From positions 1 through 35,568 of IMG/VR virus record IMGVR_UViG_3300048573_000086: DNA of 35,568 bases; one strand, given 5' to 3'. Below the pieces are notes generated by a model that made no database searches, was not told the DNA's origin, and saw only the letters and a program-made list of their open reading frames with translations. The translations under genes and the position numbers were made by a program. This document shows, piece by piece, positions 21,925 through 35,568 of this stretch. Numbering within the stretch: position 1 is the stretch's first letter; each line of letters begins with the position of its first letter. The DNA comes from a virus.

Positions 21925-24123
21925 TTAATAAATATTCCCATGTCTAGCGTTATATTCTGCTACTACTAATGCCATTTGTGAATTAGATAATCTAGTGTTA
22001 AATAATGCTACAGCTTTTAATACTGTATTGTTTACAAACCGACCTGTTGCTGCACCAGTACCACTACCTTGACCCATCATGTGTAATTTTTGAGCAGCAT
22101 TAGTTGTTGTACTATTATAATTTAATGTAGAGTTAGCTTGTGTTGTTGAATCACTCCAGAAAGCACAAGTATTCGTTCCACCATTAACATTACAACCAAA
22201 ACCTATGTAAGTAGGAGTATTTAATACAGCCGTTGCTGCTGTTGTTGGAGAAGTAACATTAGTTGTTCCCCCTCGTTGACCCATTCTTAATACTTCTGAG
22301 CTACTTACATAACCGTCTATACCAACTTCATTAGAACCATTTTTTGTAGTAAATAATATTTGAGAACTTGCACCATCTTTAATAGCTTCAAAAAATGCTA
22401 CAATAGTAAATGCTGATCCACCAGAACTTTTATGAATATTGTTTAAAAATGTTGTATTAGCACCAACAAGCGTTAAATGATCACCACCATCAAAAGTTAT
22501 TTTACCACTTGCTGTACCAGCAATTCCACTAAATACAGGGAATGTTGTAGCAAGAGATCCATCACCAAATTGCATATTATAAGCAGTTTGTCCTGAACCA
22601 TCAGCAGGAGATGTTACTAAATTCTTTAATACAGTACCTGTTCCATTATAAGAAGCCAATACTGTTAAATCTATATCCATCACACAAGATTCTAACCCTG
22701 ATACAGTTTGTAAGTTTCTTGCAGTAACTGGAGTTTCTGCTACAGTTGGTGTAGCTTCTGCACTCTCACCTTGAGAATTAACAGATGTAACATTTACTTC
22801 ATAAGAAACATTATTCGTAAGACTTGTAATTAATGTTTGTAATGTTCCTGATCCAGCAGGAATATTAGCAAATAATGTGTAAGCATTGCCTGAACCAGCA
22901 ATTCTATAATAAACTTTATGTGTTGTAATTGGATAACCATTAACATTAGGTGCTGTCCATAAAACAAGTAAACTATTTGAACCAGAAACTACTTGTAAAT
23001 CATCAATAGCATCTGGAGGTCCTGGATTAGCAGTAGGTGTAGTTTCTGCAATATTAGACCATAAACCTACACCAATAACATTTGTTGCTTTAACTCTAAA
23101 GTTGTACAACAAATCATTAGTTAATCCTGTAATTGTTATACCAGCTGTTGATGATACACTATCTGTAAAATCTAACCATGTACCACTAGAATTTAATTTA
23201 TACTGATACGAGTAATCAGTAATAGCTTTATTATGTGCATTAGGAGCAGTAAAAGATATAATAGCACTATTATTAGCAGTAGTTGCTGTAATTACTGGAG
23301 CATCTGGAATATCTAATCTTGTACTTTGTAAGTAAGCTAATTGATTGGTAATGTACGCTAATTCAAGTGAATCTTGAATAATCATTTCAGACAATACACC
23401 ATCAAATTTTGAACCAGAAGCTCCCTCAATCCCATCTGCCCCTAATATAACTTGTTTAAGTGGGAATGTAGCAGTAGAGGTATAAGGTGCTGATACCGTA
23501 CTTGTATCAACAACATTACCGTTAACATATATTTTTGCTATATCATTTTCTCTATCAATTAAAAATCCTAATGTGTACCATGTATCAGCAGCAAGGGCAT
23601 TTGTTGCAAGTTTAATAACTGTTATTGCTCCAGTATCTGCTCCATTAGGACTCATAGATATTTGTGGTTTTAATCCATTAAGAGAAAATTTACCTCTAGC
23701 ACCACGAATCTCAAAAGTATTTAATGAAAGTAATGTACCATTACCACTTGTAAAAATATTACAAGCAAAAAATAATCCAGTTTTATTTTCTGTAAATCCA
23801 GGTAAAGGATATAATTCCATAAACCTATCTGCTATATCCGTAGTATTACCAAAATTAATACCATCAGATAATTTAAATGGTTGGTAATCTTTTACAGGTT
23901 GTTCAAAAAATCTATAACCACTAACTAAATTAGGAGCATAAGATAAACTGTCAAAAGCAAAATCATCATACACATTTGAACCAGAATTAAAATCAAACCA
24001 ATAAGTAAAATCATTAGCTAAGAAAGGTGCTTTTGTATAAACTTGGTTCACACCTTTATATATTTTATCCACCTGATTACTACCAACATAATATTTTGCA
24101 ATATTATTTATACCTAATTTCAT
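21925..24123 (-). CDS. Tail fibre with LamG and fibronectin type III domains
   Basis: 732 residues. Residues 1-32 (YYVGSNQVDKIYKG) match the N-terminus of the next fibre upstream and are probably a tail-attachment motif. A concanavalin/LamG-type beta sandwich follows (about 40-265; WYTLGFLIDRENDIAKIYVN is the typical strand pair). Two FN3 domains come next (PDAPVITATTANNSAIISF with TITGLTNDLLYNFRVKA; then PPDAIDDLQVV with SYEVNVTSVNSQGES). A second LamG-like domain (about 500-732) completes the protein. LamG and FN3 modules bind glycans or serve as spacers. Its coding region ends one base before the start of the SGNH fibre gene, so the two are probably made together. It is most likely a receptor-binding fibre. 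Confidence 0.78.
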   Translation of the reverse strand: MKLGINNIAKYYVGSNQVDKIYKGVNQVYTKAPFLANDFTYWFDFNSGSNVYDDFAFDSLSYAPNLVSGYRFFEQPVKDYQPFKLSDGINFGNTTDIADRFMELYPLPGFTENKTGLFFACNIFTSGNGTLLSLNTFEIRGARGKFSLNGLKPQISMSPNGADTGAITVIKLATNALAADTWYTLGFLIDRENDIAKIYVNGNVVDTSTVSAPYTSTATFPLKQVILGADGIEGASGSKFDGVLSEMIIQDSLELAYITNQLAYLQSTRLDIPDAPVITATTANNSAIISFTAPNAHNKAITDYSYQYKLNSSGTWLDFTDSVSSTAGITITGLTNDLLYNFRVKATNVIGVGLWSNIAETTPTANPGPPDAIDDLQVVSGSNSLLVLWTAPNVNGYPITTHKVYYRIAGSGNAYTLFANIPAGSGTLQTLITSLTNNVSYEVNVTSVNSQGESAEATPTVAETPVTARNLQTVSGLESCVMDIDLTVLASYNGTGTVLKNLVTSPADGSGQTAYNMQFGDGSLATTFPVFSGIAGTASGKITFDGGDHLTLVGANTTFLNNIHKSSGGSAFTIVAFFEAIKDGASSQILFTTKNGSNEVGIDGYVSSSEVLRMGQRGGTTNVTSPTTAATAVLNTPTYIGFGCNVNGGTNTCAFWSDSTTQANSTLNYNSTTTNAAQKLHMMGQGSGTGAATGRFVNNTVLKAVALFNTRLSNSQMALVVAEYNARHGNIY

Positions 24124-24150
24124 AATCTTTATTACCTACTGTACTTTATT

Positions 24151-26103
24151 TTAATAACTTGAAATAGTATATTTATCTGCATACCAATTCATCATATTCT
24201 CAATTTCAGTTTCTGTTAATGCCGTTGTATTACTAGAACCCATAGATAAAGAATATAAATCCATATCAACAGGAACATGACCTTGTGCTGAATTAAAGAA
24301 TGTCCAAGGAGATCCATCTGCATCAGTGTTTGTAGATGCTCTTGTTAAGCCTTTAGCTCTATTTAATGTAACGGAGTTAATAGGACCTCTATTAACTTTA
24401 ATAAAAGCAATAGAGTTTGACCCTACAGGCGGGTTATAATCAATAGCTACAAAAACAATATGTTTCCTATCATAAGGAATCTCTGCTAATGTTGATGAAC
24501 TACCATTAGGAGATCCTGCTTCAAGCGAAGCAATAATACGAGATTTACCATCATCGTGGTGAAAATATACTGATCCAGTGGGTTGTGATGTAAACTTAAT
24601 ACCCTTAAAACTTACACTATTAGTCGCTACTCCTACACTATCAATAGCATCTTGTAATGTATTATGTAATCGACAAGTTGTAGCATGACCAGGTTTACGA
24701 GTAATATAGTATAAACCTTCATTTGTTAATTCAGCTGGTAGTGTTGTACCAGGTGGACTCCATAACCTTAATCTATCTAAATCTACTGCACCTAAACGAG
24801 TTACTTCACCTTGAGTAGAACCACTAATATAGAAATCTGAACCAAGTAAAATACCATTAGGAGATGGTAAGAAAGTATTATTATCTTTAACAGTTAAAGT
24901 GTTACCTCCTCCATCTGGCTCAATCCATTCAATGTAATCATTAAATACTTGTGTTTGTCCTACAAGTGTAGGAGCATACAACATATAACTACCACTACCT
25001 ATAGCACTAGGTATTATAATGTGTAAGTTTGCTTGGGCATCTGTTAATGTATTATGTAATGTAAAAGTATAAGAGGATATTTTTCTTATAAAATAATCTG
25101 TTGTTGTATCAAAAATTGTCGGTAACACAGAACTATTAATTAATTTAAATCTTACTTTATCTCCAGTAGTAAATTTATGTACACCTTTTTCTTCACTATT
25201 TCTTTCAGATAAAGTAATTACTCCTGTTGATGTACTAAAGTCAGAAAAATTTACTTTATGTTTTTTAACATTTCTAGTTTTAATCTTTCTTGTTTTACAA
25301 ACAAACATTAACCAAACATATCTTTTCAATCCACACTCTAGTCTACCAGCTGCTTTATTTGTATTCATCTGTAAAGTTTTACCATAAATATTATACCAAC
25401 CAGAAAGATCATTTTTACATAATCCTCCACCAGTGTATAAATATTTATCCCCATCACCATCTGTTTTACGAATCATATATGCGTGTCTATTTACTGTACT
25501 TGGTGTTACCATATTATAACCATTTTTCACATCTACAAGGTGTGACAATGTTTGCTCATGTGTAACTGTATGTGTACCTGATCCAGAAGTTGTAATGTCA
25601 ATAGAATTAAGTGTTTGAAAATAATGTTGTGCAGGAAATATATTTTCACCAGTAATTACAGTTTCTAACAAAGATGCGTCAGCATCAGTAGCTTTAGGAT
25701 AAACTTTATAAACACCTGTAGTTGTAGGTGATAAAAAATATTCTGTATTAGTCTGTAATGGTGCTGGTAATGTACCTGTTGTTGTAAATGTTACAGGTAT
25801 TGCTCCTTGAACCAAACCTTTAGGATAACCCGTAGGTAATCCTGGTGCTGCAAATTGTGGGTCAGTTACTGGAGTAATTTCATTTGTAGCTGTATTTACA
25901 GTAAACGTACTAGAATAATTATAAACCGTATTAGCTGCATTATCAGCATGATATGTAGCAAATGTTTGAGAAACATCTACAGGATTTACCATAGAAGGCG
26001 GTGTTACTAATGTTGTGTATGCAATCTCAGCACCTAAATAAATTTTATCTATCTGTGTGTTACCTACATAACAAGCTGAAATAGCACCATTACCTATTTT
26101 CAT
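24151..26103 (-). CDS. Tail fibre with internal beta repeats and LamG-like C-terminus
   Basis: 650 residues. It starts with the same motif as the 732-residue fibre (YVGNTQIDKIYLG). Three repeats of one beta module are visible: near residues 110-160 (LPAPLQTNTEYFLSPTTTG), 320-375 (LPTIFDTTTDYFIRKISSY then LHNTLTDA) and 455-510 (LPAELTNEGLYYITRKPG then LHNTLQDA). This type of repeat is common in fibres of marine podoviruses and similar phages. The C-terminal 150 residues resemble a LamG fold ending in the helix LTETEIENMMNWYADKY, typical of such domains. No enzyme motif was found. It probably binds the host surface or forms part of the appendages with the two downstream fibre proteins. Confidence 0.7.
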   Translation of the reverse strand: MKIGNGAISACYVGNTQIDKIYLGAEIAYTTLVTPPSMVNPVDVSQTFATYHADNAANTVYNYSSTFTVNTATNEITPVTDPQFAAPGLPTGYPKGLVQGAIPVTFTTTGTLPAPLQTNTEYFLSPTTTGVYKVYPKATDADASLLETVITGENIFPAQHYFQTLNSIDITTSGSGTHTVTHEQTLSHLVDVKNGYNMVTPSTVNRHAYMIRKTDGDGDKYLYTGGGLCKNDLSGWYNIYGKTLQMNTNKAAGRLECGLKRYVWLMFVCKTRKIKTRNVKKHKVNFSDFSTSTGVITLSERNSEEKGVHKFTTGDKVRFKLINSSVLPTIFDTTTDYFIRKISSYTFTLHNTLTDAQANLHIIIPSAIGSGSYMLYAPTLVGQTQVFNDYIEWIEPDGGGNTLTVKDNNTFLPSPNGILLGSDFYISGSTQGEVTRLGAVDLDRLRLWSPPGTTLPAELTNEGLYYITRKPGHATTCRLHNTLQDAIDSVGVATNSVSFKGIKFTSQPTGSVYFHHDDGKSRIIASLEAGSPNGSSSTLAEIPYDRKHIVFVAIDYNPPVGSNSIAFIKVNRGPINSVTLNRAKGLTRASTNTDADGSPWTFFNSAQGHVPVDMDLYSLSMGSSNTTALTETEIENMMNWYADKYTISSY

Positions 26104-26104
26104 A

Positions 26105-26566
26105 TTAACCCACTATAATATAAAATGTTGTAGGATTTTTTGTTACAATAGCGTCATATTCTGCTTGGGTCAAAGAAACGATATTAGTAATAGCATCAGC
26201 TCCAGTAATACCAGTAATATCTGACGTAGGTGTAATACCTAACTTTGTATTTAATGCAGTAGTGTATGAAGCAGTAGTTGCTTGTAATACACTCGAATAT
26301 GCTTGAACATTCGTACCAATAGCTAAACCTAAATTTGTTCTTGCTGTAGAAGCACTAGCTAAATCAGATAGATTACTTGCTTTTTGACAACTAACATCAA
26401 TAACACTATCAATAGTATCAACAACACTATCAAAAGCATTTTGTACAGGAACTCGTACATCAGCAGGAGATACTGCTCCACTTGTATTATCATTAATATT
26501 ATTTGTTGCTAATGTCTTAAATGTTCCAATATCACTTTTAAGTGTAGCAATTACTTTAACTGTCAT
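26105..26566 (-). CDS. Short tail-fibre-type protein
   Basis: 153 residues. KASNLSDLASASTARTNLGL is a phage tail-fibre element (a variant of the common NLSDLxSxxTARxNLGL repeat), and the C-terminus SLTQAEYDAIVTKNPTTFYI is the module found at the end of many fibre or collar proteins. The N-terminal part is Ala/Thr/Asp-rich. It is probably a trimeric connector or short fibre. It heads the fibre cluster and ends one base before the 650-residue fibre gene, which suggests that its product is the tail-proximal part to which the larger fibres attach. That assembly order is an inference from gene order. Confidence 0.6.
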   Translation of the reverse strand: MTVKVIATLKSDIGTFKTLATNNINDNTSGAVSPADVRVPVQNAFDSVVDTIDSVIDVSCQKASNLSDLASASTARTNLGLAIGTNVQAYSSVLQATTASYTTALNTKLGITPTSDITGITGADAITNIVSLTQAEYDAIVTKNPTTFYIIVG

Positions 26567-26764
26567 TTATGCGAATCCTCCGCTGAATCCATTACTAAAA
26601 CTAATATTACCTTCTTCAGGTGGTGGGCTATTAACGAGAACTTCAAAACCTATAGAAAATCCATCACTAAAAGAATAATATAAAGGAGAGGTACTTTCTA
26701 TAATAGTACCAAACACATTATTTAAAGGAAGTCTTAATACAGGTTGTAAAACTAATTTAAACAT
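26567..26764 (-). CDS. Very small protein in fibre operon, unknown
   Basis: 65 residues, with aromatic and Gly-rich repeats of the form FSDGFSIGF and FSNGFSGGF separated by a Pro-rich bend (NSPPPEEG). No recognised domain. It is tightly packed between two virion genes (0 and 12 bases) and in frame with them for expression, so it is probably a real gene and a minor virion component or connector. The two FSxGFSxGF copies suggest a beta-turn repeat. Confidence 0.4.
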   Translation of the reverse strand: MFKLVLQPVLRLPLNNVFGTIIESTSPLYYSFSDGFSIGFEVLVNSPPPEEGNISFSNGFSGGFA

Positions 26765-26776
26765 ACTATCTCTATA

Positions 26777-27046
26777 TTAATAACGTAATACTGCATAAGC
26801 ATTACCACCAGTAACTTGTAAATCACCACGAATTAATTTTGATCCAGCAACCCATAACTGTCCAGCAGGAATTTCAGCTGAAATAACACCAAACACTGTA
26901 TCATTTATATCATTAGGTTTCATTTTTAATAAAACTGTAACAGCATTATTTGGATCTGCTCGTATGTACAATTCATAATCGTCTACTAGAGTATCTTGAG
27001 CTACTCCATTTACTAATGATAAACTTTTTGTACGTTCCCAACTCAT
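26777..27046 (-). CDS. Small beta-rich virion protein, unknown
   Basis: 89 residues with alternating hydrophobic pattern (ELYIRADPNNAVTVLLKMKP, IPAGQLWVAGSKLIRGDLQV), typical of a single beta-sandwich domain. Similar short proteins occur next to collar and fibre genes in podoviruses and are often annotated as hypothetical. It overlaps the preceding gene by one base (stop/start overlap), so translation is coupled. No function can be assigned beyond a likely tail or collar component. Confidence 0.45.
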   Translation of the reverse strand: MSWERTKSLSLVNGVAQDTLVDDYELYIRADPNNAVTVLLKMKPNDINDTVFGVISAEIPAGQLWVAGSKLIRGDLQVTGGNAYAVLRY

Positions 27047-27747
27047 TATACAAATCCTTTTTGTTCTAAATGATAATTACTATCTTGAAAGTCTGGTGTT
27101 AAATTACTACGAATAATCTTATTACCTAATTCAGTGTATTGTACTAAATTGTTTTGTGCTTCTGCACTATTCTTACCCAAGTCTAAATAATATTTACTAG
27201 CTATTAAATATTTTAACATCTCATACATAATAGGAGGTAGTGATATAATATCTGTATTTATTGAACCAAGAGATAAAGGAATATGATCAGCTAAATAAAC
27301 TACAGAGAAATAATCTCCAATATTTAAATGACTAAACTGAACACAGTCAAATGAAATAGTATGAACAGATGAACAATTTAATCTATCATTGATTAATAAG
27401 TCACACCCATACTGATCAAATATATTAACTATCTTTATTATATAAGGATAAAATGGAGCATGAACAGTATCTTGTATGTATTTATTTGTAACAACTGTTG
27501 GATCACTTAAAGCATATTCTTTGCGTAAATAATATTCGGTATAAGGAGGGAATAACTTTAGCAACACAGACTTCTTTAACAAATAATATTCTGAATATAA
27601 GTTTGTTAATGCTTCGTTTGTATAAACAATTAATTGATCAATAAAATTTGTTTTAAATCCAGTAGTTTGATTAAGATCTACAGCAGCTGTATTCTTTAAT
27701 CGTGTAAGAGCTAATTGTTTTAAGAAGTCTTTAGCTAACATTATCAA
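27046..27747 (-). CDS. Putative head-to-tail adaptor / tail protein
   Basis: 233 residues. The helical N-terminus (LAKDFLKQLALTRLKNTAAV, FIDQLIVYTNEALTNLYSEY) is followed by a beta domain and a C-terminal helix pair (LPPIMYEMLKYLIASKYYLD, ENNLVQYTEL-type). The pattern of an N-terminal helical bundle, a central beta insert and a final LPxxLxxxLxxYxA-like helix resembles gp11-type tail adaptors of podoviruses. It lies directly downstream of the large terminase and overlaps it by four bases (ATGA type), near the place of N4 gp67. The adaptor role is an inference from this layout and is moderate; a collar protein is equally possible. Confidence 0.45.
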   Translation of the reverse strand: MIMLAKDFLKQLALTRLKNTAAVDLNQTTGFKTNFIDQLIVYTNEALTNLYSEYYLLKKSVLLKLFPPYTEYYLRKEYALSDPTVVTNKYIQDTVHAPFYPYIIKIVNIFDQYGCDLLINDRLNCSSVHTISFDCVQFSHLNIGDYFSVVYLADHIPLSLGSINTDIISLPPIMYEMLKYLIASKYYLDLGKNSAEAQNNLVQYTELGNKIIRSNLTPDFQDSNYHLEQKGFV

Positions 27748-29339
27748 TCTACTATATATGAATTTATTTGATTGTACTCATCTTCAAAACTATTGTCAAA
27801 ATAAATATTGTTACTATTATCACTTTTTCTAGTGTTACTATCTAATGAAGGTTTAATCATATTCATTTCTTGTAACATAGATATTGTATCTAAACAATCA
27901 TCTTTACCCTTTAATCCATTAATTGTAGCTAAATTAATTTCACTTAGAAATTCTGATACAGTAGTAGTTTCTTTTAATTCAGTAGGAAAATGTATCTTAC
28001 CTTGTCTAAACAATGGTACTACTAAATTAAACCTACTTAACTTATCCCCTGTGGGGTAAATACCTAATTCTGTTTTACCCTTCTGTCTAGCTATATTAAA
28101 AAATACATTTCTTCTCATCTGTTCCTTTTCGATCCAAGATATAAATCCTCCTTGTTGTCCTGATCTCTCAATACCTACAGTTTGTGGTTTATATTCCTGA
28201 CAAAAATCAAATAACTGATCAATCGAAACATCTACAGTCTGTCTTTTACAAATACCATCTACCCAGAAATAATCTCCATTATTACTATAAGCCCAAACAG
28301 ATATAACATTATAATCTGCTGTTTTCTTTTCCGATGTAGCAAAGTCTGTTGTTATATAAAAATTAAAATTATATTTTTGCTTTAACAAATCCACTCTACT
28401 GAACCAACGAATCTCATTATCTTGGATCAATCTATCTTCTGGTGATGATATTCTTAACATCATTTCTTGTTGAAATGCCCCTGATTGCCCATTTAAAGAT
28501 AATTTATTATATGTCTTTAACAGTGCATCATAACTAAATCTTTCTTCCCATGCTCCTTTAAAGTCTTGTTTATCACAAGGAAACTTCTCACAAACAGGAA
28601 ACACATTAACATAATATGCTCCAGATTCTGCTGCTTTATATAATGGATCTTCTTTATTAAACGGAGTACCATTCCATATAATCTTTTTCTGTGACATATC
28701 TAATGCTGGTTCAAGACTCTTATAAACTGTATCATTTATATCTTGCATAATTGTAGTTGATTGACTGTTCTTATCAGAAATCAAATCATCAAGTATTGCA
28801 ATCTGTGGGCGTTTACCAAACATCTTTTTACCACGAATACTGCTTGTAACACCAAACAAGTTAATACCTAATTGATGTCCTCTTTTATTAGTAAACTCTA
28901 TATATGGATCAGTAAATATAACTTTAGGTAACCACTCTTGTAAGAATGGAGATTTATCATAACGTGATTCCATATTCTTTCTTAAAGACTTAGCTCCATT
29001 CTCCATAGTATCATTAATAGATAATACGCCAGTAACTTCTCCAAAGTTAGGTAACTCTTCTTCTATTGCTAAGATAGGTAAAAAGAACTCACAAAACAAT
29101 GATGTCTTACCTGAACCACGAAACACTAAATTAATTATATCTAATCCTTTAGATTGTATAATTGCATCTAACATTTTTAAATGTATTATTGGAGTAGGGT
29201 GCGATTCAGGATTATCTTTAGTAATTAATTTCATATAAGATAAATATTTAAGTACATATTCTGAAGGAATATAATTATCATTCAGATCTCGATAATCAAT
29301 GTTATTTAAATACTCATCAACACTTATTGGTTTAATCAT
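27744..29339 (-). CDS. terL: Terminase large subunit (N4 gp68-like)
   Basis: 531 residues. The ATPase domain has Walker A FRGSGKTS at residues 73-80 and Walker B IAILDD (Asp184, Asp185) within RPQIAILDDLIS; IIWNGTP near residue 220 is the coupling motif. The RNase H-like nuclease domain has ITTDFATS (Asp332), GIERSGQQGG (Glu391) and GKDDCLDTISML (Asp480, Asp481, Asp484). All functional parts are present. It pumps DNA into the procapsid through the portal and cuts the concatemer. It is preceded within 1 base by the putative small subunit. The gene starts the late block, as in N4, where gp68 is near the right end of the linear genome. Confidence 0.93.
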   Translation of the reverse strand: MIKPISVDEYLNNIDYRDLNDNYIPSEYVLKYLSYMKLITKDNPESHPTPIIHLKMLDAIIQSKGLDIINLVFRGSGKTSLFCEFFLPILAIEEELPNFGEVTGVLSINDTMENGAKSLRKNMESRYDKSPFLQEWLPKVIFTDPYIEFTNKRGHQLGINLFGVTSSIRGKKMFGKRPQIAILDDLISDKNSQSTTIMQDINDTVYKSLEPALDMSQKKIIWNGTPFNKEDPLYKAAESGAYYVNVFPVCEKFPCDKQDFKGAWEERFSYDALLKTYNKLSLNGQSGAFQQEMMLRISSPEDRLIQDNEIRWFSRVDLLKQKYNFNFYITTDFATSEKKTADYNVISVWAYSNNGDYFWVDGICKRQTVDVSIDQLFDFCQEYKPQTVGIERSGQQGGFISWIEKEQMRRNVFFNIARQKGKTELGIYPTGDKLSRFNLVVPLFRQGKIHFPTELKETTTVSEFLSEINLATINGLKGKDDCLDTISMLQEMNMIKPSLDSNTRKSDNSNNIYFDNSFEDEYNQINSYIVD

Positions 29340-29340
29340 A

Positions 29341-30021
29341 TCAACTTATCTCTTTTGGTGTAACATCAATAATAGATTGTCTAGCTACATCTTTAGCACT
29401 ACTACCATTATTAATTTGTTGCATCTGTGCAGAAGCTAATTGTCTTAATGTTTCTTTTAAATCTTTAAGATCACTGCTATCTTTAGTACCGATCTGTAAT
29501 TCAATCTGTTTTGTTTCTGGTCTCTTTAAATGTGTTAATAAACTATTAGCTGCATCACATTTTACTTTATCAGACTTAGCTGTAAACATAAGATCAGCTT
29601 GAACATTAATAGCTTGCTGGTATATATTAGCATTTAAAACATGAACAGGTATTAGTGTTTGATCCAGAATAAGATTAACTAACTTATTTTTATTATAAGC
29701 AGCAACATAAGAAGATATATCTTTATCTGATACACCTTCTGCTATTAAATTCTGGTATCTTTCTGGGAATGTAAGTTTATAACTATCTTTATTACTATAC
29801 CCTAATATCTTATAACTAACATATTTCACAGCATTAAAATAATCTAATACTTTAAACTGACCATCTCTTACTACTGTTGAATAAGATACAAAGTTATTTC
29901 TAATTTCTTCTGCTACAATAGGATTATCAGATACTTCATTAAATAATCTTACAAACTCATCATTAATATGTAACTTAACTTGTGTAGGTAAAGATCTTTC
30001 AATATCTTCTTTTGACAACAT
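29341..30021 (-). CDS. Putative terminase small subunit (N4 gp69-like)
   Basis: 226 residues. The second half contains NANIYQQAINVQADLMFTAK and SDKVKCDAANSLLTHLKRPE, a block I recall from the protein encoded beside the terminase in N4-like phages. The N-terminal half is helical and includes a possible helix-turn-helix region (EGVSDKDISSYVAAYNKNKL). Small terminases recognise the packaging site and hand DNA to the large subunit. The call rests on position (one base upstream of the large subunit) and the remembered block. It is the first gene of the leftward late transcript, and its 5' end contains the -35 element of the rightward promoter at 30012. Confidence 0.55.
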   Translation of the reverse strand: MLSKEDIERSLPTQVKLHINDEFVRLFNEVSDNPIVAEEIRNNFVSYSTVVRDGQFKVLDYFNAVKYVSYKILGYSNKDSYKLTFPERYQNLIAEGVSDKDISSYVAAYNKNKLVNLILDQTLIPVHVLNANIYQQAINVQADLMFTAKSDKVKCDAANSLLTHLKRPETKQIELQIGTKDSSDLKDLKETLRQLASAQMQQINNGSSAKDVARQSIIDVTPKEIS

Positions 30022-30040
30022 ATAATAATTTTCCTATACT
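30012..30040 (+). promoter_or_regulatory. Near-consensus sigma70-type promoter facing right
   Basis: TTGACA at 30012-30017 and TATACT at 30035-30040 with a 17-base spacer: a perfect -35 box, ideal spacing and a 5/6 -10 box. It points to the gene at 30073, with a start point expected near 30047. The -35 box lies inside the first codons of the leftward small-terminase gene. This is the best host-type promoter I found, and would let host polymerase read the first rightward operon. Confidence 0.6.
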
Positions 30041-30072
30041 ATTTAAGTTAGTATTACTCAACAGGAAAAATA

Positions 30073-30423
30073 ATGCAAGTAGATTTACAAACACTCATAA
30101 AATATCAAGGTAACTATTTAAATGGAGTATCACATTTCTTAAGAGAATTAGCTTATGAACCAGAACTAAAAGATATTATAACATATATCTTTCTTGAACC
30201 AAACAATAAGACATTATCCTTAGTACATACTGATACAAAAACTTATTCTGATAAACTATTATTTAATATTCCCATTGATTTGTTTTCACTAAATAATGTT
30301 ATAACATCATACAATTTATTTTACAAAGATAAAGATAAAGTGGTATCATTATTTGATGGACAAGGATTTATCAAACTATCATTTATAGAATATATAAGGA
30401 ATCTCATTAATGAAACCAAATAA
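30073..30423 (+). CDS. Unknown protein, first gene of the rightward operon
   Basis: 116 residues, no recognised domain. Contains FLEPNNKTLSLVHTDTKTYS and a hydrophobic, Phe/Ile/Leu-rich second half (NIPIDLFSLNNVITSYNLFY). A similar word (LFEPNNKE) occurs in the gene at 30673, which might mean distant relationship, but the rest does not obviously match. Start ATG preceded by AGGAAA. It follows the promoter at 30012 and overlaps the next gene by 14 bases, so translation is coupled. Soluble, probably intracellular; function not known. Confidence 0.6.
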   Translation: MQVDLQTLIKYQGNYLNGVSHFLRELAYEPELKDIITYIFLEPNNKTLSLVHTDTKTYSDKLLFNIPIDLFSLNNVITSYNLFYKDKDKVVSLFDGQGFIKLSFIEYIRNLINETK

Positions 30424-30649
30424 ACTTACAGAATACAAATCTATTAAAGATTTAAAAATTAACACACCTTATTTATTTTACGGTAAAAATAAAAAAGGAG
30501 GTACATTCTATTCTACAGGTTATATCTCTGAAGAGGAATTATACGACCATAATCCAAAGAACATAAAGAAAGAAATGAAAGTTAGACTAGATGCAGATAT
30601 GTACTCTAATCCACCAGAGGTAACTCATTATTTAGAACTAGAGTATTAG
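30410..30649 (+). CDS. Unknown small protein
   Basis: 79 residues, charged, with PYLFYGKNKKGGTFYSTGYI in the middle, which suggests a small beta domain, and an acidic C-terminus (PEVTHYLELEY). No cysteine and no membrane segment. It begins inside the end of the gene at 30073 in another frame. Part of the four-gene operon that stops at the terminator at 31259. No function can be assigned. Confidence 0.55.
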   Translation: MKPNKLTEYKSIKDLKINTPYLFYGKNKKGGTFYSTGYISEEELYDHNPKNIKKEMKVRLDADMYSNPPEVTHYLELEY

Positions 30650-30672
30650 TTAATTATCATAGTAAAAATATA

Positions 30673-30948
30673 ATGATCCATACAAAACAATATATGAAAC
30701 AAAACTATAACTGCACAGTTAAGTTAAAGAATAGTAATCTTATCCTTTTTGAACCAAACAATAAAGAACAAGAATCTGCTGATAGAATTATTAATACATT
30801 ACCTAGTAGAGATATAGAAAATATTATTGTTTGTGGATTTACTAAAGATGGGTTACCATTCTATAATCATTCATTAATGAATAAGTCTATATTAAGTCTT
30901 ATACTATTTAACGTACAAGAATATATTAAAGATTCATTATTGGAGTAA
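30673..30948 (+). CDS. Unknown small protein
   Basis: 91 residues. LILFEPNNKEQESADRIINT and NIIVCGFTKDGLPFYNHSLM are the most structured parts, and the C-terminus is helical. The alternation of short strands and helices suggests a small alpha/beta domain. The ribosome-binding site is weak. It follows the gene at 30410 after 23 bases and is followed by the GTG-started gene at 30953. No known family recognised. Confidence 0.5.
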   Translation: MIHTKQYMKQNYNCTVKLKNSNLILFEPNNKEQESADRIINTLPSRDIENIIVCGFTKDGLPFYNHSLMNKSILSLILFNVQEYIKDSLLE

Positions 30949-30952
30949 TACA

Positions 30953-31204
30953 GTGTTACAAGATGAAGATGTAAAAACTATAATAAACATTGATTTTAAT
31001 AAACTATCTGAGTTTAAAGATTATCTATTATCCTATGACATACATAATTATATCTTAGATATTAATGATGGTTATAGATTAATAATCTACTACAATTATA
31101 AAATATTTACCTACTCAAAAATATCCATTAAAAGTAATATTATGTTGTTGCAATTAACTCATGTTGAACCAGTAAAACAATTTGATAATATTTACTGTTT
31201 ATAA
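30953..31204 (+). CDS. Unknown small protein, GTG start
   Basis: 83 residues, rich in Ile, Tyr, Asp and Asn (FKDYLLSYDIHNYILDINDG), with alternating hydrophobic strands later (IMLLQLTHVEPV). The start is GTG, preceded by GGAG at about 8 bases. No ATG is available near this point, and the frame is open and tightly spaced after the previous gene (4 bases). Last gene before the terminator at 31259. Function not known. Confidence 0.5.
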   Translation: MLQDEDVKTIINIDFNKLSEFKDYLLSYDIHNYILDINDGYRLIIYYNYKIFTYSKISIKSNIMLLQLTHVEPVKQFDNIYCL

Positions 31205-31258
31205 TTAATAATGTATGTTAAGATAATTTATTCTCCTAGATTGTTATGGATAAACTTC

Positions 31259-31291
31259 TACCTAGTAAAATAAATTACTAGGTATTTTTTT
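31259..31291 (+). terminator. Intrinsic terminator after the first rightward operon
   Basis: TACCTAGTAA (31259-31268) pairs with TTACTAGGTA (31275-31284) around AATAAA, ten pairs, followed by seven T (31285-31291). It lies 54 bases past the stop of the last gene of the operon. There is no T-run on the minus side, so it acts rightward only. Confidence 0.85.
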
Positions 31292-31452
31292 GTGTGAAAT
31301 CTATATAATATAGTGATAAGTATAGAGTGTAAATATCTAATATTTTTTATTATTAATTTTCTATAGAATATAGGTTTATATGCAGAGTGTTCCTCCTAGG
31401 GAGGTATATATACAAATAAATTATATCCCCCCCCTATACATCGTATAACACA

Positions 31453-31476
31453 GTATGCAAGCATACCAGTGGCAAT
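31453..31476 (+). promoter_or_regulatory. Hairpin promoter candidate 1 (virion polymerase)
   Basis: GTATGCAAGCATAC (31453-31466) is a perfect inverted repeat with AA at its centre, followed by two bases and GTGGCAAT. The copy at 31947 has different stem bases but the same core GCAAGC and the same downstream GTGGYAAT. In N4 the virion polymerase recognises small hairpins centred near -11. Placing the second A at -11 puts +1 on the G at 31471, so the transcript would start GGCAAT. The gene at 31505 follows 34 bases later. Confidence 0.6.
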
Positions 31477-31504
31477 CATGCCTAACAATATAGGAGAACA
31501 TACC

Positions 31505-31813
31505 ATGTCAGGTATCTTTAAATCATTCCAATCTACAACTGTACAGACTCTTACATCAGTTGGATCAGCATTCAATATGATCAATGATGGAATCACTATG
31601 GCAGCAAATGTCATAGAACGTCATAAACATAGTCAGCTTGTAAATAAGCAAGCAGACATTGATACTCTTGTCACCAATCATCGTAAAGAATTGGTAGCAA
31701 CAGTACAACAAACATACAAAGAAGTCCTTGATTTAAAAGAAAAAGAACAAAATACTTTTAACATGGCACTAGAACTTCTACAATTCGATGAACTTCTACG
31801 CATCAAAGCCTAA
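31505..31813 (+). CDS. Unknown early protein, helical
   Basis: 102 residues. The N-terminal part (SGIFKSFQSTTVQTLTSVGS) is amphipathic; the remainder is a long charged helix (HRKELVATVQQTYKEVLDLK) that could form a coiled coil. No known family. I chose the ATG at 31505 because AGGAGA lies eight bases before it; an in-frame GTG at 31469 would start upstream of the predicted transcript start. The gene looks somewhat less AT-rich than most neighbours. It is a single-gene unit between hairpin promoter 1 and its own terminator, the layout of an early phage gene that may act on the host. Confidence 0.65.
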   Translation: MSGIFKSFQSTTVQTLTSVGSAFNMINDGITMAANVIERHKHSQLVNKQADIDTLVTNHRKELVATVQQTYKEVLDLKEKEQNTFNMALELLQFDELLRIKA

Positions 31814-31825
31814 ACATATACTAAA
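31809..31825 (+). repeat. 17-base element next to terminator, copy 1
   Basis: CCTAAACATATACTAAA, ending exactly where the terminator stem begins. A second copy with one difference (C for T at base 11) stands at 33080-33096, again abutting a terminator stem. It overlaps the stop codon of the gene at 31505. Confidence 0.6.
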
Positions 31826-31857
31826 GACTAGAGAGCAATCTCTAGTCTAACTTTTTT
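31826..31857 (+). terminator. Intrinsic terminator with GCAA tetraloop
   Basis: GACTAGAGA (31826-31834) pairs perfectly with TCTCTAGTC (31839-31847) around a GCAA (GNRA-type) loop, followed by six T at 31852-31857. It ends the single-gene unit at 31505-31813. Confidence 0.88.
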
Positions 31858-31946
31858 AACACATAACACATTGGATAGTATATAGATTGCGTAAGTAAGC
31901 TATTTATCTAGTGTATCTTAAAGATTATCTATGTGTCATCATTGTT

Positions 31947-31970
31947 GTCAGCAAGCTGACTTGTGGTAAT
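31947..31970 (+). promoter_or_regulatory. Hairpin promoter candidate 2 (virion polymerase)
   Basis: GTCAGCAAGCTGAC (31947-31960), a perfect inverted repeat with AA at the centre, then TT and GTGGTAAT. Compared with copy 1, the paired bases at stem positions 3 and 4 change on both arms together, so the stem is kept while its sequence varies. The predicted start is the G at 31965. It precedes the small genes from 32027. Confidence 0.6.
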
Positions 31971-32026
31971 AATAATTTACCTTACTGCAAATATAATTAA
32001 CAACATATAACAACAGGAGAATATAT

Positions 32027-32191
32027 ATGTTACATTATGAAACAACAATCCAAGAAGATAGATCACTGGTTCAAACTCATTTGAATCTATCTCGTAAACC
32101 TATACCAGAACCAGATCATATCAGTGATGTTATAGAACAAGCAATTACAGATATACAAACAATCCTTAAAGGAGATATGTATGCAAAATAA
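32027..32191 (+). CDS. 54-residue early protein, unknown
   Basis: ATG at 32027 with CAGGAGA eight to ten bases upstream, a good ribosome-binding site. The product is acidic and helical, with IPEPDHISDVIEQAITDIQT in the second half. No known family. It is the first gene after hairpin promoter 2 and overlaps the next gene by 11 bases. Confidence 0.55.
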   Translation: MLHYETTIQEDRSLVQTHLNLSRKPIPEPDHISDVIEQAITDIQTILKGDMYAK

Positions 32192-32300
32192 TAAAATTCC
32201 AGTAGAACTTGTACAAAACTTATTATCAACTGAACCAGAAGATGAAGCATATTCATCAGACTTTGGATCAGATAATCAATCAACAAATGAAAGTAAATAA
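32181..32300 (+). CDS. 39-residue acidic protein, unknown
   Basis: ATG at 32181, inside the end of the previous gene in another frame, with AAGGAG about six to nine bases upstream. The product is strongly acidic and Ser-rich (LLSTEPEDEAYSSDFGSDNQ), with an amphipathic start. Small acidic proteins of this kind are common among phage early products and sometimes mimic DNA or block host proteins; nothing here shows such a function. Confidence 0.5.
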   Translation: MQNNKIPVELVQNLLSTEPEDEAYSSDFGSDNQSTNESK

Positions 32301-32301
32301 C

Positions 32302-32505
32302 ATGAACAAACAATTATTAATAACAACAGGAATTACAATATCATTAGTATTAATAGTAGCTTACAATGTAATAAATTACTTCTCATTACCAGAAGTACAT
32401 ACAAACAGTTATGGTGATTGTATCAGAGTAATTAATCATTCTGATACAAAATATGATTGTGAAAATATGCCAGATAAATTCATTAATTATGTGGTTCAAA
32501 TATAA
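32302..32505 (+). CDS. Small single-span membrane protein
   Basis: 67 residues from the ATG at 32302, one base after the previous stop. An ATG at 32287 in the same frame would add five residues; neither has a clear ribosome-binding site, so coupling with the gene before is likely. Residues about 4-26 (LLITTGITISLVLIVAYNVI) form one membrane segment, and the rest, with two Cys (near GDCIRV and YDCENM), probably lies outside the cytoplasm, where the Cys could pair. An early envelope protein, for example in exclusion of other phages, is one possibility, but this is a guess. Confidence 0.55.
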   Translation: MNKQLLITTGITISLVLIVAYNVINYFSLPEVHTNSYGDCIRVINHSDTKYDCENMPDKFINYVVQI

Positions 32506-32523
32506 GTAAAATATCAGCTAAAG

Positions 32524-32547
32524 CACATATATAATTATATGTGTTTT
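32524..32547 (+). terminator. AT-rich hairpin with short T-run, weak terminator
   Basis: CACATATA (32524-32531) pairs with TATATGTG (32536-32543) around TAAT, followed by four T. It stands 18 bases past the stop of the small membrane protein. GTGG follows at 32548, as after the hairpin promoters, but at a different distance, so I prefer a terminator. Confidence 0.45.
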
Positions 32548-32600
32548 GTGGTGTTTTATAATACCAATCAATAACTCAGCTATATCTCAGGAGAAATTAT

Positions 32601-33023
32601 ATGGCTTACATTTCAAAAACAAACAGAACAGCAGACATCAATAAAGCATTTAACATATTCAATACAGAAGATGTTAAACCAACAACTGAACCAAAGAATA
32701 ACATTTGGTTAAATATTGGTATCATAACAATGGTAGAGAATGAAGATGGAATAGAAGAAGAACAATTCATTAGTTTACCAATTAATATATCATTAGATAT
32801 GATTCAAAACTCTACTAATTATAAATATTTAATGAGTGGTAAATCTTTATCACCATTGAGTGTTAAAAAGAGAAATCTTATTAAAGCAATCGAAAAACAA
32901 ATGTCAACTTTAGACAATAATAATCCAACTTATGATTCAAAATTGAATGTACAATTCTACAAAGAATTACCAAAAGAAGCTCAAATTATTGAAAATGAAG
33001 ATGAATTTATTGATCTAATTTAA
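32601..33023 (+). CDS. Unknown phage protein with conserved-looking core
   Basis: 140 residues. NNIWLNIGIITMVENEDG and EQFISLPINISLDMI form a beta core; the middle is basic (SVKKRNLIKAIEKQM) and the C-terminus acidic (IIENEDEFIDLI). An acidic tail after a beta core is typical of phage single-stranded DNA-binding proteins, which in N4 also activate late transcription, but I do not see enough to claim that. AGGAGA precedes the start by six to eight bases. It is a single-gene unit closed by a strong terminator, as is the gene at 31505. Confidence 0.6.
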   Translation: MAYISKTNRTADINKAFNIFNTEDVKPTTEPKNNIWLNIGIITMVENEDGIEEEQFISLPINISLDMIQNSTNYKYLMSGKSLSPLSVKKRNLIKAIEKQMSTLDNNNPTYDSKLNVQFYKELPKEAQIIENEDEFIDLI

Positions 33024-33079
33024 GCTCAACTTTATATATCAAAACCTAAAGACTAGATTTTTAATATTTTACAAAAATA

Positions 33080-33096
33080 CCTAAACATACACTAAA
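33080..33096 (+). repeat. 17-base element next to terminator, copy 2
   Basis: CCTAAACATACACTAAA, 16 of 17 bases as at 31809-31825, again ending at the first base of a terminator stem. The shorter word CCTAAA recurs nearby at about 33047, 33152, 33187 and 33198. Confidence 0.6.
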
Positions 33097-33134
33097 CAAC
33101 AACATAGAGAAATCTGTGTTGTTGATTTTTTTTT
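33097..33134 (+). terminator. Strong intrinsic terminator with GAAA tetraloop
   Basis: CAACAACATAGA (33097-33108) pairs with TCTGTGTTGTTG (33113-33124), twelve pairs with one G-T, around a GAAA loop, followed by nine T at 33126-33134. It ends the unit of the gene at 32601. Genes further right need their own promoter; none was recognised in 33135-33205. Confidence 0.88.
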
Positions 33135-33205
33135 GTAAAAACAGATAGTAACCTAAAGATTAACACCTTAAATTTATAAAAAAATACCTAAAGGATACCT
33201 AAAGA

Positions 33206-33742
33206 ATGGAAACAATCTCACTAGAAGAACTTATTAATCTATTATCGAATGATGGATATGATCCATATGCTAAATTAACATACACTCGTAAAGGTACAAC
33301 TTATGAAATAGATAATACAGATAATTTTAATTGGTACATTAAAGAATTGGTAGAACATAAAATGAATACATATAAATTAGATAAATTAGTTATGTTTTTA
33401 AAAAGTGAAACAAAATTCTTTAAACATATTCCTTGGGACAATAAAATATTTATTAAAAATATTGATCCAATACATTTAACTATGATTAATCGAGAGTTAA
33501 TAGATAAAGAATTTACAACAAGAACTTTAATAAAAGAATACTGTAAAAAAGTATTTACACCTATTACAGCACTTGATTATTTAAAAGAACATGATCCAAC
33601 ATTAGAAATATCTGTTAGTTTAATGGACGCAAAAAATGAACATATTCTAAATGTTACATCAGTAGATTTAGCTGATGTATTATTTAAACATAAATTAGAG
33701 TTAGAAGTAGATAAAGCATTAGAATCATACAACTGGGAGTAA
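33206..33742 (+). CDS. Unknown protein upstream of RNAP1
   Basis: 178 residues, mixed alpha/beta, charged, with ISLEELINLLSNDGYDPYAK at the start, TRTLIKEYCKKVFTPITALD in the middle and a helical C-terminus. No recognised motif, membrane segment or signal. It ends five bases before RNAP1 and is therefore part of the same transcript. In N4, small genes of unknown function also precede the RNAP1 gene. A role in middle transcription or replication is possible from context only. Confidence 0.5.
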   Translation: METISLEELINLLSNDGYDPYAKLTYTRKGTTYEIDNTDNFNWYIKELVEHKMNTYKLDKLVMFLKSETKFFKHIPWDNKIFIKNIDPIHLTMINRELIDKEFTTRTLIKEYCKKVFTPITALDYLKEHDPTLEISVSLMDAKNEHILNVTSVDLADVLFKHKLELEVDKALESYNWE

Positions 33743-33747
33743 ATAAT

Positions 33748-34524
33748 ATGGACAATGAATTAGAACAACTATTTGATAACAGACTTAAATTTAAATTATT
33801 ATTGGATACATTAAATAATCCAGATTTAATATCTTATTTAAAAGATAATAATATACCAGAGAAATTTGGTCTTATGTTATTGGTTCAGATGAACTTATTT
33901 GAGATAGCTAATATAGAAACACTTGTAGGTGTATTACAGACACAATGTGATAACATACAAGAATGTGCTAATCTATTAGAACAAGCAATAGAACTAGATC
34001 TTGTAGATTATAATGGTGATTGGTTCATTGTAAGACATAAATTCAAACCAGATTTATTACAGAAAGTTAAATCATTAATATATCCATTACCAATGACTAC
34101 TGAACCAGTAACATTAAAAACTAACAATGATAGTGCATATAGTTATATTGGTTCAGAAAGTGTAATACTCAAACCTAAATTAAATTATCATAATAATGAA
34201 GTATGTTTATCTCATCTTAATAAAATGAATAAGATTGCTCTTAGTATTAATAATATTAATAAGACTAAAAATAAAGTTAAACCAAAGAAAGACGATACAC
34301 AGTTAAAAGTGAACCAGAAACAACAAAGACTTAATAAATTTATGTCTGAAGTTAATGATGTTTATAGTCATCTTATGATGCAAGGTAATAAGTTTTATCT
34401 AGCACATAGATATGACAAACGAGGTAGAATATATTGTTCTGGTTATCATATAAATTATATGGGAAATGAGTATCAAAAATCAATAATTGAATTATTTAAT
34501 AAGAAAGTAATCAAAGATGAGTAA
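33748..34524 (+). CDS. RNA polymerase subunit RNAP1 (N4 gp15-like)
   Basis: 258 residues, about the size recalled for N4 gp15. The last 45 residues (YLAHRYDKRGRIYCSGYHIN and following, with YMGNEYQKSIIEL) match the T/DNA motif of T7-type polymerases (DWRGRVY in T7), with DKRGR at residues 223-227. The protein then stops before motif A, so it cannot be a whole polymerase. In N4, RNAP1 carries the N-terminal part and RNAP2 (gp16) the catalytic motifs; together they read middle genes. GGGAG precedes the start. The following gene overlaps by eight bases. RNAP2 does not follow within the window, unlike in N4. A truncated pseudogene is the alternative, but the regular start, size and coupling argue against it. 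Confidence 0.8.
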   Translation: MDNELEQLFDNRLKFKLLLDTLNNPDLISYLKDNNIPEKFGLMLLVQMNLFEIANIETLVGVLQTQCDNIQECANLLEQAIELDLVDYNGDWFIVRHKFKPDLLQKVKSLIYPLPMTTEPVTLKTNNDSAYSYIGSESVILKPKLNYHNNEVCLSHLNKMNKIALSINNINKTKNKVKPKKDDTQLKVNQKQQRLNKFMSEVNDVYSHLMMQGNKFYLAHRYDKRGRIYCSGYHINYMGNEYQKSIIELFNKKVIKDE

Positions 34525-34771
34525 ATTTATAATAAATCTAATAACAACTGTTTTAGCTAGTTTTGTATTAGCATATTTGTTTATAGGATTAACAAATTGT
34601 TTTTATTGGTTTACTTTTCAGTATTTACCTTATGTAATAAATTTTACAGAAAGTAAACCTGTTAGTTTTATACCTTTGTTAAAATTTACTTTAATAGAAA
34701 GTATAACGGTAACACCTATAATAACTGTTGTAATGTTAATGATGGAATATAAATCAAATAAGGATAAATAA
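34517..34771 (+). CDS. Small two-span membrane protein
   Basis: 84 residues. Two hydrophobic segments: FIINLITTVLASFVLAYLFI near the N-terminus and LIESITVTPIITVVMLMMEY near the C-terminus, ending with a short basic tail (KSNKDK). Both ends are probably cytoplasmic. It overlaps the end of RNAP1 by eight bases, so the two are translationally coupled. The layout of two spans and a charged tail is like many small phage membrane proteins, including holins, but its place among early/middle genes makes lysis unlikely. Confidence 0.6.
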   Translation: MSKFIINLITTVLASFVLAYLFIGLTNCFYWFTFQYLPYVINFTESKPVSFIPLLKFTLIESITVTPIITVVMLMMEYKSNKDK

Positions 34772-34772
34772 T

Positions 34773-35201
34773 ATGGGAGCAGGTTGTTACTATACAAACA
34801 AATACTATGATAAAGATAACCATGAACAGTATGTTAAAGCTGTATGGTTAGATATTGATCCAGAAGATGAATATGATTATTCTGATCAAATGAGTAATCT
34901 ATTTCATGATTTAAAATCAATATTAAATGTAGTTTATAGTGATGATAAAGATTATGAAATTCAAACCTTATTATATAAAATATCATTTGAATCAACATAT
35001 TATGGAGATGGTATCATTATTAAACAAACGTGTTTATTAAATGATGCAGACTATCTTGAACCAAATGAAATAAAACTAAGAAACTTAGCAAACTATAACT
35101 TTGAAAAGAATTATTATTCAATGATTAATAAACTTTGTAAACTTGGTTATAAGTTTAGAATAGCAACAAGTAATTACACGTCAGGAGAATATCAACTATG
35201 A
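34773..35201 (+). CDS. Unknown phage protein (MGAGCYYT type)
   Basis: 142 residues. The start MGAGCYYTNKYYDKDN and AVWLDIDPEDEYDY recall a group of short hypothetical proteins found in many phages, often beginning MGxGCYxT, followed by a wide acidic region. Function of that group is unknown to me. The second half contains STYYGDGIIIKQTCL and a helical end. It begins one base after the two-span protein and overlaps the next gene by ATGA. Probably soluble. Confidence 0.55.
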   Translation: MGAGCYYTNKYYDKDNHEQYVKAVWLDIDPEDEYDYSDQMSNLFHDLKSILNVVYSDDKDYEIQTLLYKISFESTYYGDGIIIKQTCLLNDADYLEPNEIKLRNLANYNFEKNYYSMINKLCKLGYKFRIATSNYTSGEYQL

Positions 35202-35568
35202 TAGACAGAAATAAAATAACTTATAAATTAAAATTTTATACAAATTCATTAATTGATAATAAAATTTTTAATTTTACAACAAAAGAGTTTGAACCAATAT
35301 GTTATAACCCATTTGATTTTAATATAATTAAAACTAGAATAGATCATATTTGTTTTTCTGATACTTTAATTAATTCAGATGAAATAGGATTCAATACTAT
35401 TGGAGAAGTTATTAATAATCCTAGTCACATATTATTTAAAATAGATTATTGTTATGAAACATTAAAAATATTTAATCAGAATAATATATACCTTTTAGAT
35501 TCTAAAGAAGATCAAAAAATATTAGATAATTTAGATGGTATATTAACATCTAATATTACTAAAAAATT
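35198..35568 (+). CDS. Unknown protein, cut by window edge
   Basis: The ATG at 35198-35200 overlaps the previous TGA, with CAGGAGA about ten bases upstream. At least 123 residues are visible, starting MIDRNKITYKLKFYTNSLID, rich in Ile, Asn, Phe and Asp, without a stop before the edge. IDHICFSDTLINSDEIGFNT is in the middle. No polymerase motif A, B or C is seen, so it is not RNAP2 in the visible part. Function not known. Confidence 0.6.
   Translation, partial: MIDRNKITYKLKFYTNSLIDNKIFNFTTKEFEPICYNPFDFNIIKTRIDHICFSDTLINSDEIGFNTIGEVINNPSHILFKIDYCYETLKIFNQNNIYLLDSKEDQKILDNLDGILTSNITKK

Follow-up and report, generated by a model that had tools for sequence, protein, structure and literature searches.

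Two four-base-loop hairpins ahead of gp1- and gp2-like genes as probable virion RNA polymerase promoters of an N4-like phage

The virion RNA polymerase (vRNAP) of phage N4 is the textbook example of a polymerase that reads DNA hairpins, and the detailed rules of this recognition come from three promoters of a single phage. N4 also relies on a difference between the two strands, as a single-stranded-DNA-binding protein melts only the non-template hairpin. According to the available text of PMC4496689, the template bases recognised by N4 vRNAP are A or G at -11, G at -10, G at -8 and C at +1, the GAA and GGA loops are closed by a C-G pair and contain a sheared G-A pair, and the hairpin is read by residues K114, R119, W129, D901 and R904 of mini-vRNAP. 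Early hairpins ascribed to a vRNAP, similar to those described below but with three-base loops, have been predicted in LUZ7 (three hairpin promoters), LIT1 and PEV2 (PMC3715699, available in part) and reported for Pectobacterium phages CB1, CB3 and CB4 (PMC6027278, likewise); the annotated promoters in the CB1 record have the loop ATA and carry GTGG or GTGA after the linker. The open-access literature searched, including the accessible portions of PMC3915230, PMC3670811, PMC9525291, PMC13001222 and PMC10654107, yielded no description of vRNAP promoters with a four-base loop, and the words hairpin and promoter are absent from PMC7650795.

A search of the N4 early region (NC_008720) for recurrent hairpins returned three, at 90, 557 and 4546, each consisting of a 5-bp core stem and a 3-base loop followed by four bases and GG. 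On the non-template strand they read GTTGC TTC GCAAC ttat GGACAT, GAAGC TCC GCTTC tttt GGATGA and GCTGC TCC GCAGC tttt GGTAAT, respectively. Based on their number and order we take them to be P1, P2 and P3, and the P1 template-strand hairpin GTTGCGAAGCAAC, printed in the available part of PMC12633501, agrees with the hairpin at 90. The first two directly precede gp1 and gp2.

The stretch of DNA analysed here, referred to as the window, is a virus record of 35,568 bases with 28.4% G+C. PHROG matches on its minus strand comprise a vRNAP, a major head protein, a portal, a large terminase subunit and a gp69-like protein. With a giant vRNAP gene, N4-like versions of terminase, portal, major head protein, gp69 and RNAP1, and late genes that diverge from the early block, the contig is judged to be part of an N4-like phage (Schitoviridae). 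Its gp69-like protein stays below 60% identity with every one of the 464 phage records that match it (the best among those listed reaching 55.3%), indicating an N4-like phage without a close cultured relative in that collection. Searches for close relatives with the RNAP1 and TerL of the window returned only sibling contigs at 98-100% identity, a TerL search of genome_contigs found no relative and megablast of positions 22000-35568 against phages gave no match. Two siblings at 98% identity (L132 and L133) end before reaching the early region. The hairpin pair is also carried by two near-identical contigs, which speaks against an assembly error, although these contigs are not independent relatives. 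In another very AT-rich N4-like contig (IMGVR_UViG_3300043394_000327; 27% G+C, TerL 54% identical), the 9 kb preceding the terminase contain no recurrent hairpin.

The early block of the window, on the plus strand, is organised as follows, with the two hairpins referred to as promoters 1 and 2:

31259 to 31284, plus strand: terminator-like hairpin with T run, upstream of promoter 1, dividing the early block from four ORFs at 30073-31204
31453 to 31466, plus strand: putative hairpin promoter 1, stem GTATG/CATAC, with a loop that reads CAAG in the non-template and CTTG in the template strand
31467 to 31470, plus strand: linker CAGT of promoter 1, four bases, the same length as in the three N4 hairpins
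31471 to 31476, plus strand: predicted transcript start GGCAAT, +1 at 31471, template C at +1, spacing taken from N4 and relatives
31505 to 31813, plus strand: first early gene, N4 gp1 family (phrog_5020, E 2.2e-4)
31825 to 31848, plus strand: terminator-like hairpin with T run, after the gp1-like gene
31947 to 31960, plus strand: putative hairpin promoter 2, stem GTCAG/CTGAC, with a loop that reads CAAG in the non-template and CTTG in the template strand
31961 to 31964, plus strand: linker TTGT of promoter 2, four bases
31965 to 31970, plus strand: predicted transcript start GGTAAT, +1 at 31965, spacing taken from N4
32027 to 32191, plus strand: first small ORF of unit 2, no PHROG match
32601 to 33023, plus strand: N4 gp2 family protein (phrog_4099, E 2.2e-15; gp2 is the N4 RNAPII cofactor), about 640 nt past promoter 2
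33097 to 33124, plus strand: terminator-like hairpin with T run, after the gp2-like gene
33748 to 34524, plus strand: RNAP1 (middle-polymerase subunit resembling N4 gp15), with no hairpin promoter detected ahead of it

The original prediction had described two hairpins with shared outer GT/AC and core GCAAGC, differing by paired stem changes and followed by GTGGYAAT, and both sequences are present as described. Hairpin 1 is GTATGCAAGCATAC (31453-31466), followed by CA and GTGGCAAT, while hairpin 2 is GTCAGCAAGCTGAC (31947-31960), followed by TT and GTGGTAAT; the exact pattern matches at 31457 and 31951 in the window. Two stem pairs differ between the hairpins and, as can be seen directly, each is changed on both sides. 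By analogy with N4, GTGGYAAT likely straddles the transcription start, with GT at -2/-1 and the transcript beginning at the GG at 31471 and 31965, which would place the centre of the inverted repeat at about -11.5, close to the -11 at which N4 early hairpins are centred. Between the upstream terminator and promoter 1, at 31388-31440, lies the inverted repeat CCTCCTAGGGAGG, followed by a run of C's. The N4 genome end lies close upstream of P1, and this repeat may therefore be near a terminus.

The two hairpins had also been said to precede the first two units of the rightward block, and gene family matches now place them ahead of a gp1-like gene and a gp2-like operon. N4 gp1 itself matches phrog_5020 at 1.3e-46 and the gp1-like gene of the sibling contig at 1.1e-5; direct BLASTP of the 31505-31813 product against N4 gp1 gives only 18% identity over 67 residues. 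Two further features can be described. An imperfect direct repeat, AACCTAAAGA..ATACCTAAA (33043-33085 and 33150-33192), flanks the terminator after the gp2-like gene, and a candidate host-type promoter, TTGACA-17-TATACT (11/12), is located at 30012-30040 just ahead of the plus-strand ORFs at 30073-31204.

Written in the same way as the N4 hairpins, those of the window read GTATG CAAG CATAC cagt GGCAAT and GTCAG CAAG CTGAC ttgt GGTAAT on the non-template strand. They share with N4 P1-P3 the short hairpin, the four bases between the 5-bp core stem and GG, and the template C at +1, and with P1 and P2 the placement ahead of gp1 and gp2 orthologues, the latter in the window only as the head of an operon about 640 nt upstream of the gp2-like gene. 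The third N4 hairpin is followed by tttt GGTAAT and promoter 2 by ttgt GGTAAT. The N4 hairpin had been described as having a three-base loop, which is right; its functional hairpin is that of the template strand, where the loop of the window reads CTTG. This loop is closed by G-C, whereas the N4 loops are GAA or GGA closed by C-G. With the predicted +1, the window template has T at -11, C at -10, T (promoter 1) or A (promoter 2) at -8 and G at -9, so that of the four template bases recognised by N4 vRNAP in the available text of PMC4496689 only +1C is kept. N4 requires a three-base loop with a central purine, G at -10 and a 3' A / 5' G loop pair, while the window has CTTG. Further, two copies were found in the window compared with three in N4. 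Considering the loop, the bases at -8, -10 and -11 and the missing third promoter, we file the pair as a variant and not as an N4-class promoter.

Taken together, by analogy with N4, we consider it very probable (roughly 90%) that the two hairpins are early promoters of the virion RNA polymerase of this phage and work like N4 P1 and P2. That they are vRNAP promoters was already the core of the original prediction, and comparison makes this the best explanation, given the gene order, a GG spacing as in N4 and relatives, and a vRNAP with the N4 fold on the same contig.

The pair could instead have arisen by chance, as short inverted repeats are common in an AT-rich genome: the window contains 121 hairpins that have 6 or more pairs and a loop of 2-5. 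A motif-free scan of both strands for hairpin pairs within 3 kb (stem of at least 6, equal loop length), comparing loop, inner stem and downstream bases, ranked the pair as the best of 66 with a score of 7, above the best score of 5 in 60 dinucleotide shuffles. We then formulated an N4-type rule, consisting of a 5-bp stem with at least 2 G/C, a loop of 3 or 4, exactly four bases and then GG, which is not blind since the GG was part of the original prediction. On the plus strand of the whole window exactly two sites fit this rule, namely the two hairpins, and on the minus strand two unrelated sites do. The four sites over both strands are matched by the highest count among 400 shuffled windows (mean 0.96), a point in favour of chance; the number of sites alone is only mildly unusual, and it is their position that counts. 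When, for each unit, the 200 nt leading up to its first gene were shuffled, a site appeared in 0.42% and 0.28% of 20,000 trials, respectively, and in both stretches together in 0 of 20,000. As position and spacing are moreover those of relatives, a chance pair is the least probable of the alternatives weighed here. The further copies before early genes to which the original prediction had looked were found neither in the contig nor in the sibling reaching about 2.6 kb further. Specifically, no third rule-fitting site that could serve RNAP1 (gp15) is present on the plus strand of the window, and none turned up when the sibling was scanned under relaxed settings as far as about 2.6 kb past the window, with a G/C filter that would miss promoter 1 too.

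The position of such hairpins was then compared across records, using 20 matched of 31 records for phrog_5020 (gp1 family) and 22 matched of 30 for phrog_4099 (gp2 family), and leaving out the second, terminal-repeat gp1 copy of Pollock and one weak partial gp2 match. A rule-fitting hairpin lies within 450 nt upstream of the gp1-family match in 16/20 cases (one of the 16 being the sibling of the window), compared with 1/20 on the opposite strand, and upstream of the gp2-family match in 18/22, compared with 2/22. No site was found upstream of 4/20 gp1 and 4/22 gp2 matches; several records had less than 450 nt of upstream sequence, EaP8 gp1 only 14. EaP8 carries a single hairpin with the four-base loop TTAC ahead of its gp2 match. 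It should be noted that the window, which lies outside the gp2 count, would miss the 450-nt gp2 test because promoter 2 sits 640 nt from the gp2-like gene.

These counts bear on the proposal that both sites are double-stranded operators for a dimeric phage or host regulator of early genes, the hairpin being incidental to dyad symmetry. Operators of this kind would account for two 14-bp near-palindromes with the common core GCAAGC and outer GT/AC, and for the fact that only two copies fit, each ahead of a transcription unit. However, operators would not be expected to share a one-sided downstream word at a constant distance, the two copies preserve stem pairing despite different stem bases, and the same geometry recurs before gp1 and gp2 orthologues with different stems and loops. 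We therefore regard operator sites as highly improbable, and the vRNAP promoter reading is retained in what follows.

To place the loop of the window among those of other N4-like phages, hairpins were surveyed in sequence upstream of the terminase gene of viral contigs and in early regions of cultured phages. In a first set, 64 of 80 loci (at least 1.5 kb upstream of TerL) were used in one scan; after removal of siblings and most short loci, 63 of the 80 were combined with the window and seven cultured phages into 71 regions, which eight further cultured phages and 30 of 50 new loci extended to 109 regions (636 kb). Relatedness and near-duplication are widespread among these regions, and some of the counted cultured phages are represented a second time by IMG/VR copies or close relatives, so the counts given here do not represent independent events. 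Recurrent families of 3-base-loop hairpins with GG at offset 4 are present in 22/109 regions, compared with 0-6 for each of the other ten offsets from 0 to 10, and the loops most in excess at offset 4 among the 71 regions are N4's own: C(TCC)G with 24 against a mean of 2.2 and C(TTC)G with 20 against 1.7 elsewhere. Recurrent 4-base-loop families with GG at offset 4 occur in 3/109 regions, compared with 0-2 at other offsets, and the three are the window, Erwinia phage S6 (NC_019514) and contig L150 (IMGVR_UViG_3300025875_000016).

S6 and L150 share with the window the four-base loop (TAAC and TCAC on the non-template strand, respectively), the 5-bp stem and the four bases before GG, the latter in 2/3 copies in S6 and 4/6 in L150; the S6 copy ahead of the gp2 orthologue continues ttct GGCAAT, and in the L150 genome no rule-fitting site lies within 450 nt of the gp2 match. 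On the template strand the loops are C(GTTA)G in S6, C(GTGA)G in L150 and G(CTTG)C in the window, and by sequence those of S6 and L150 look like the GNA loops of N4 with one added base. Comparison with these phages favours reading each window hairpin as 5 bp with a CAAG loop. A two-base-loop reading (6 bp and AA) was also considered, which keeps the CG step beside the loop as in N4; the spacing in S6 and L150 fits the four-base reading. An even loop had been put forward as the mark of a variant class, and this interpretation gains support, with the S6 and L150 comparison favouring the CAAG form.

The spacing rule is not universal: the recurrent hairpins of CB1 (ATA, six copies), LIT1 (TTC, two), VBP47 (TAC, five) and pVa5 (TAC, eight) do not have GG at offset 4. 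The scan also misses some promoters, as it found no recurrent hairpin family in LUZ7, for which three promoters are predicted in the available part of PMC3715699; none was found in At2 and EaP8 either. Several records carry more early-region copies than the three of N4, with loops specific to each genome, and the hairpins of L150 (six, TCAC), VBP47 (five), pVa5 (eight), Pollock (five, TTC) and contig L323 (four, ACA) are candidate vRNAP promoters.

A recurrent CNNG loop was seen in only one of the 109 regions, the window itself, and among them no diverged relative emerged in which the CTTG loop recurs. Single CNNG hairpins at the same spacing occur in L154, L193, L303, L332 and L343, and we treat these as probably due to chance. 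The same applies to a single GCTTG CAAG CAAGC hairpin in L171 (region coordinate 3445; record G009), which is followed by four bases and GG and lies 229 nt upstream of a gp1 match; it may be chance or a second promoter class, and a TCC hairpin lies nearer the gp1 match. An exact-motif scan of viral_contigs returned at least 120 stretches, among which, besides the two siblings, four have complementary inner bases, all as single copies and fewer than the approximately 7 expected by chance. Conservation in relatives thus holds for part of what had been anticipated: architecture and position are kept, while the exact sequence is not kept in the other phages found.

Computed folding energies are modest, with -1.0 kcal/mol for promoter 1 and -2.1 kcal/mol for promoter 2, compared with -2.7 for the N4 P1 hairpin, and 46/200 and 23/200 shuffles, respectively, fold as well. 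Under another ViennaRNA DNA setting promoters 1 and 2 come to -1.8 and -3.0, and the three N4 hairpins to between -2.4 and -3.9, which places promoter 2 inside the N4 range and leaves promoter 1 weaker than that range. The DNA parameter sets inspected contain no special values for CTTG or CAAG loops. The motif gCNNGc is reportedly one of few selected stable DNA tetraloop motifs (Nakano et al., 2002). For comparison with a three-base loop, the accessible part of PMC5815330 gives d(GCA) -2.80 kcal/mol with C-G closure and -0.87 with G-C closure.

The vRNAP gene, whose product is the presumed reader of both promoters, is found in two pieces:

2 to 3049, minus strand: vRNAP core (phrog_2206), cut by the contig end
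3321 to 6296, minus strand: N-terminal part of the same vRNAP (also phrog_2206) in another frame, one open frame in the sibling

A small frameshift within 3050-3360 splits the gene in the window, while in the sibling (record G002; L139, L351) a single frame stays open for at least 2151 codons, up to the end of the locus; the break may thus be an assembly error or a variant. Among the vRNAP cores listed from viral_contigs, none but that of the sibling exceeds 24% identity with the window core, measured over the best segment. In an alignment of cores from 39 of 79 loci, the N4 positions R424, D559, R666, Y678 and D951 are identical in 39/39. An AlphaFold2 model of the core (mean pLDDT 68.8, pTM 0.73) has its best structural matches in seven entries for N4 vRNAP, of which three are promoter complexes, with Z 31.0-35.9 over 927-979 residues; the next structure match is a T7 RNA polymerase with Z 19.4, and Foldseek ranks the same entries first. 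Based on this model, the window core has the N4 mini-vRNAP fold. The residues aligned with the hairpin-reading K114, R119, W129, D901 and R904 of N4 are a gap, K, Y, N and S, at places where both alignment and model are weak; position 129 is W in 21, Y in 8 and F in 4 of the 39 cores, and the loop-contact region of the model is of low confidence (pLDDT below 50 at 126-144 and 148-153). As these positions are variable and poorly modelled, we conclude no more than that recognition has diverged. Elsewhere, open frames with vRNAP matches reach 6500, 5434 and 4592 codons (G004, G008 and G003; L234, L240 and L232), well above the 3500 residues of the N4 protein, and the G008 frame contains four separate vRNAP matches.

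The presence of a virion polymerase that has the residues conserved across its family is also at odds with early transcription being started by host sigma-70 type promoters, the hairpins having some other role. A TTGTCA-17-AATAAT match does overlap hairpin 2 (31945-31973), but none is listed at hairpin 1, and the 47 sigma-70-like matches in 29900-35568 represent no excess over shuffles (mean 57.2, sd 8.5). This possibility appears even more remote than that of operator sites.

Hairpin anatomy, gene families, spacing, recurrence across the family and polymerase fold come from the computations above; extrusion, binding, start sites and termination are carried over from N4. On this basis, initiation at the proposed vRNAP promoters can be envisaged as follows. 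The vRNAP would enter the cell with the phage DNA, and negative supercoiling would extrude the short inverted repeats. The polymerase would then bind the template-strand hairpin, 5'-GTATG CTTG CATAC-3' or 5'-GTCAG CTTG CTGAC-3', and start towards the 5' side of the hairpin, four bases past the stem and opposite two template C's, yielding transcripts that begin with GGCAAU and GGUAAU. The first transcript would cover the gp1-like gene and probably end at 31825-31848, the second would cover the small genes and the gp2-like cofactor and end at or after 33097-33124, and the two would jointly set up the change to the middle polymerase. The variant loop, with four bases (CTTG, closed by G-C) instead of the three of N4, would be matched to a strongly diverged polymerase.

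The hairpins of the window are placed as in N4 and carry a different, four-base loop, and the vRNAP polymerase family therefore appears to have changed its signal during evolution. More speculatively, and with considerable doubt, vRNAP promoters of Schitoviridae may fall into loop classes that change with the polymerase, C(GNA)G, C(GNNA)G and G(CTTG)C, the last recurrent only here so far. As CTTG reads CAAG on the other strand, template and non-template hairpins share the same C..G loop frame, so that the strand difference of the N4 type would be weakened or replaced by some other choice of strand. As this natural pair of promoters keeps the geometry but has another loop, and its polymerase is only about 20% identical to the others, it allows a test of which elements of recognition are structural (stem and start distance) and which are sequence (loop), and the simple rule of a hairpin, four bases and GG finds candidate early promoters in many uncharacterised N4-like phages.
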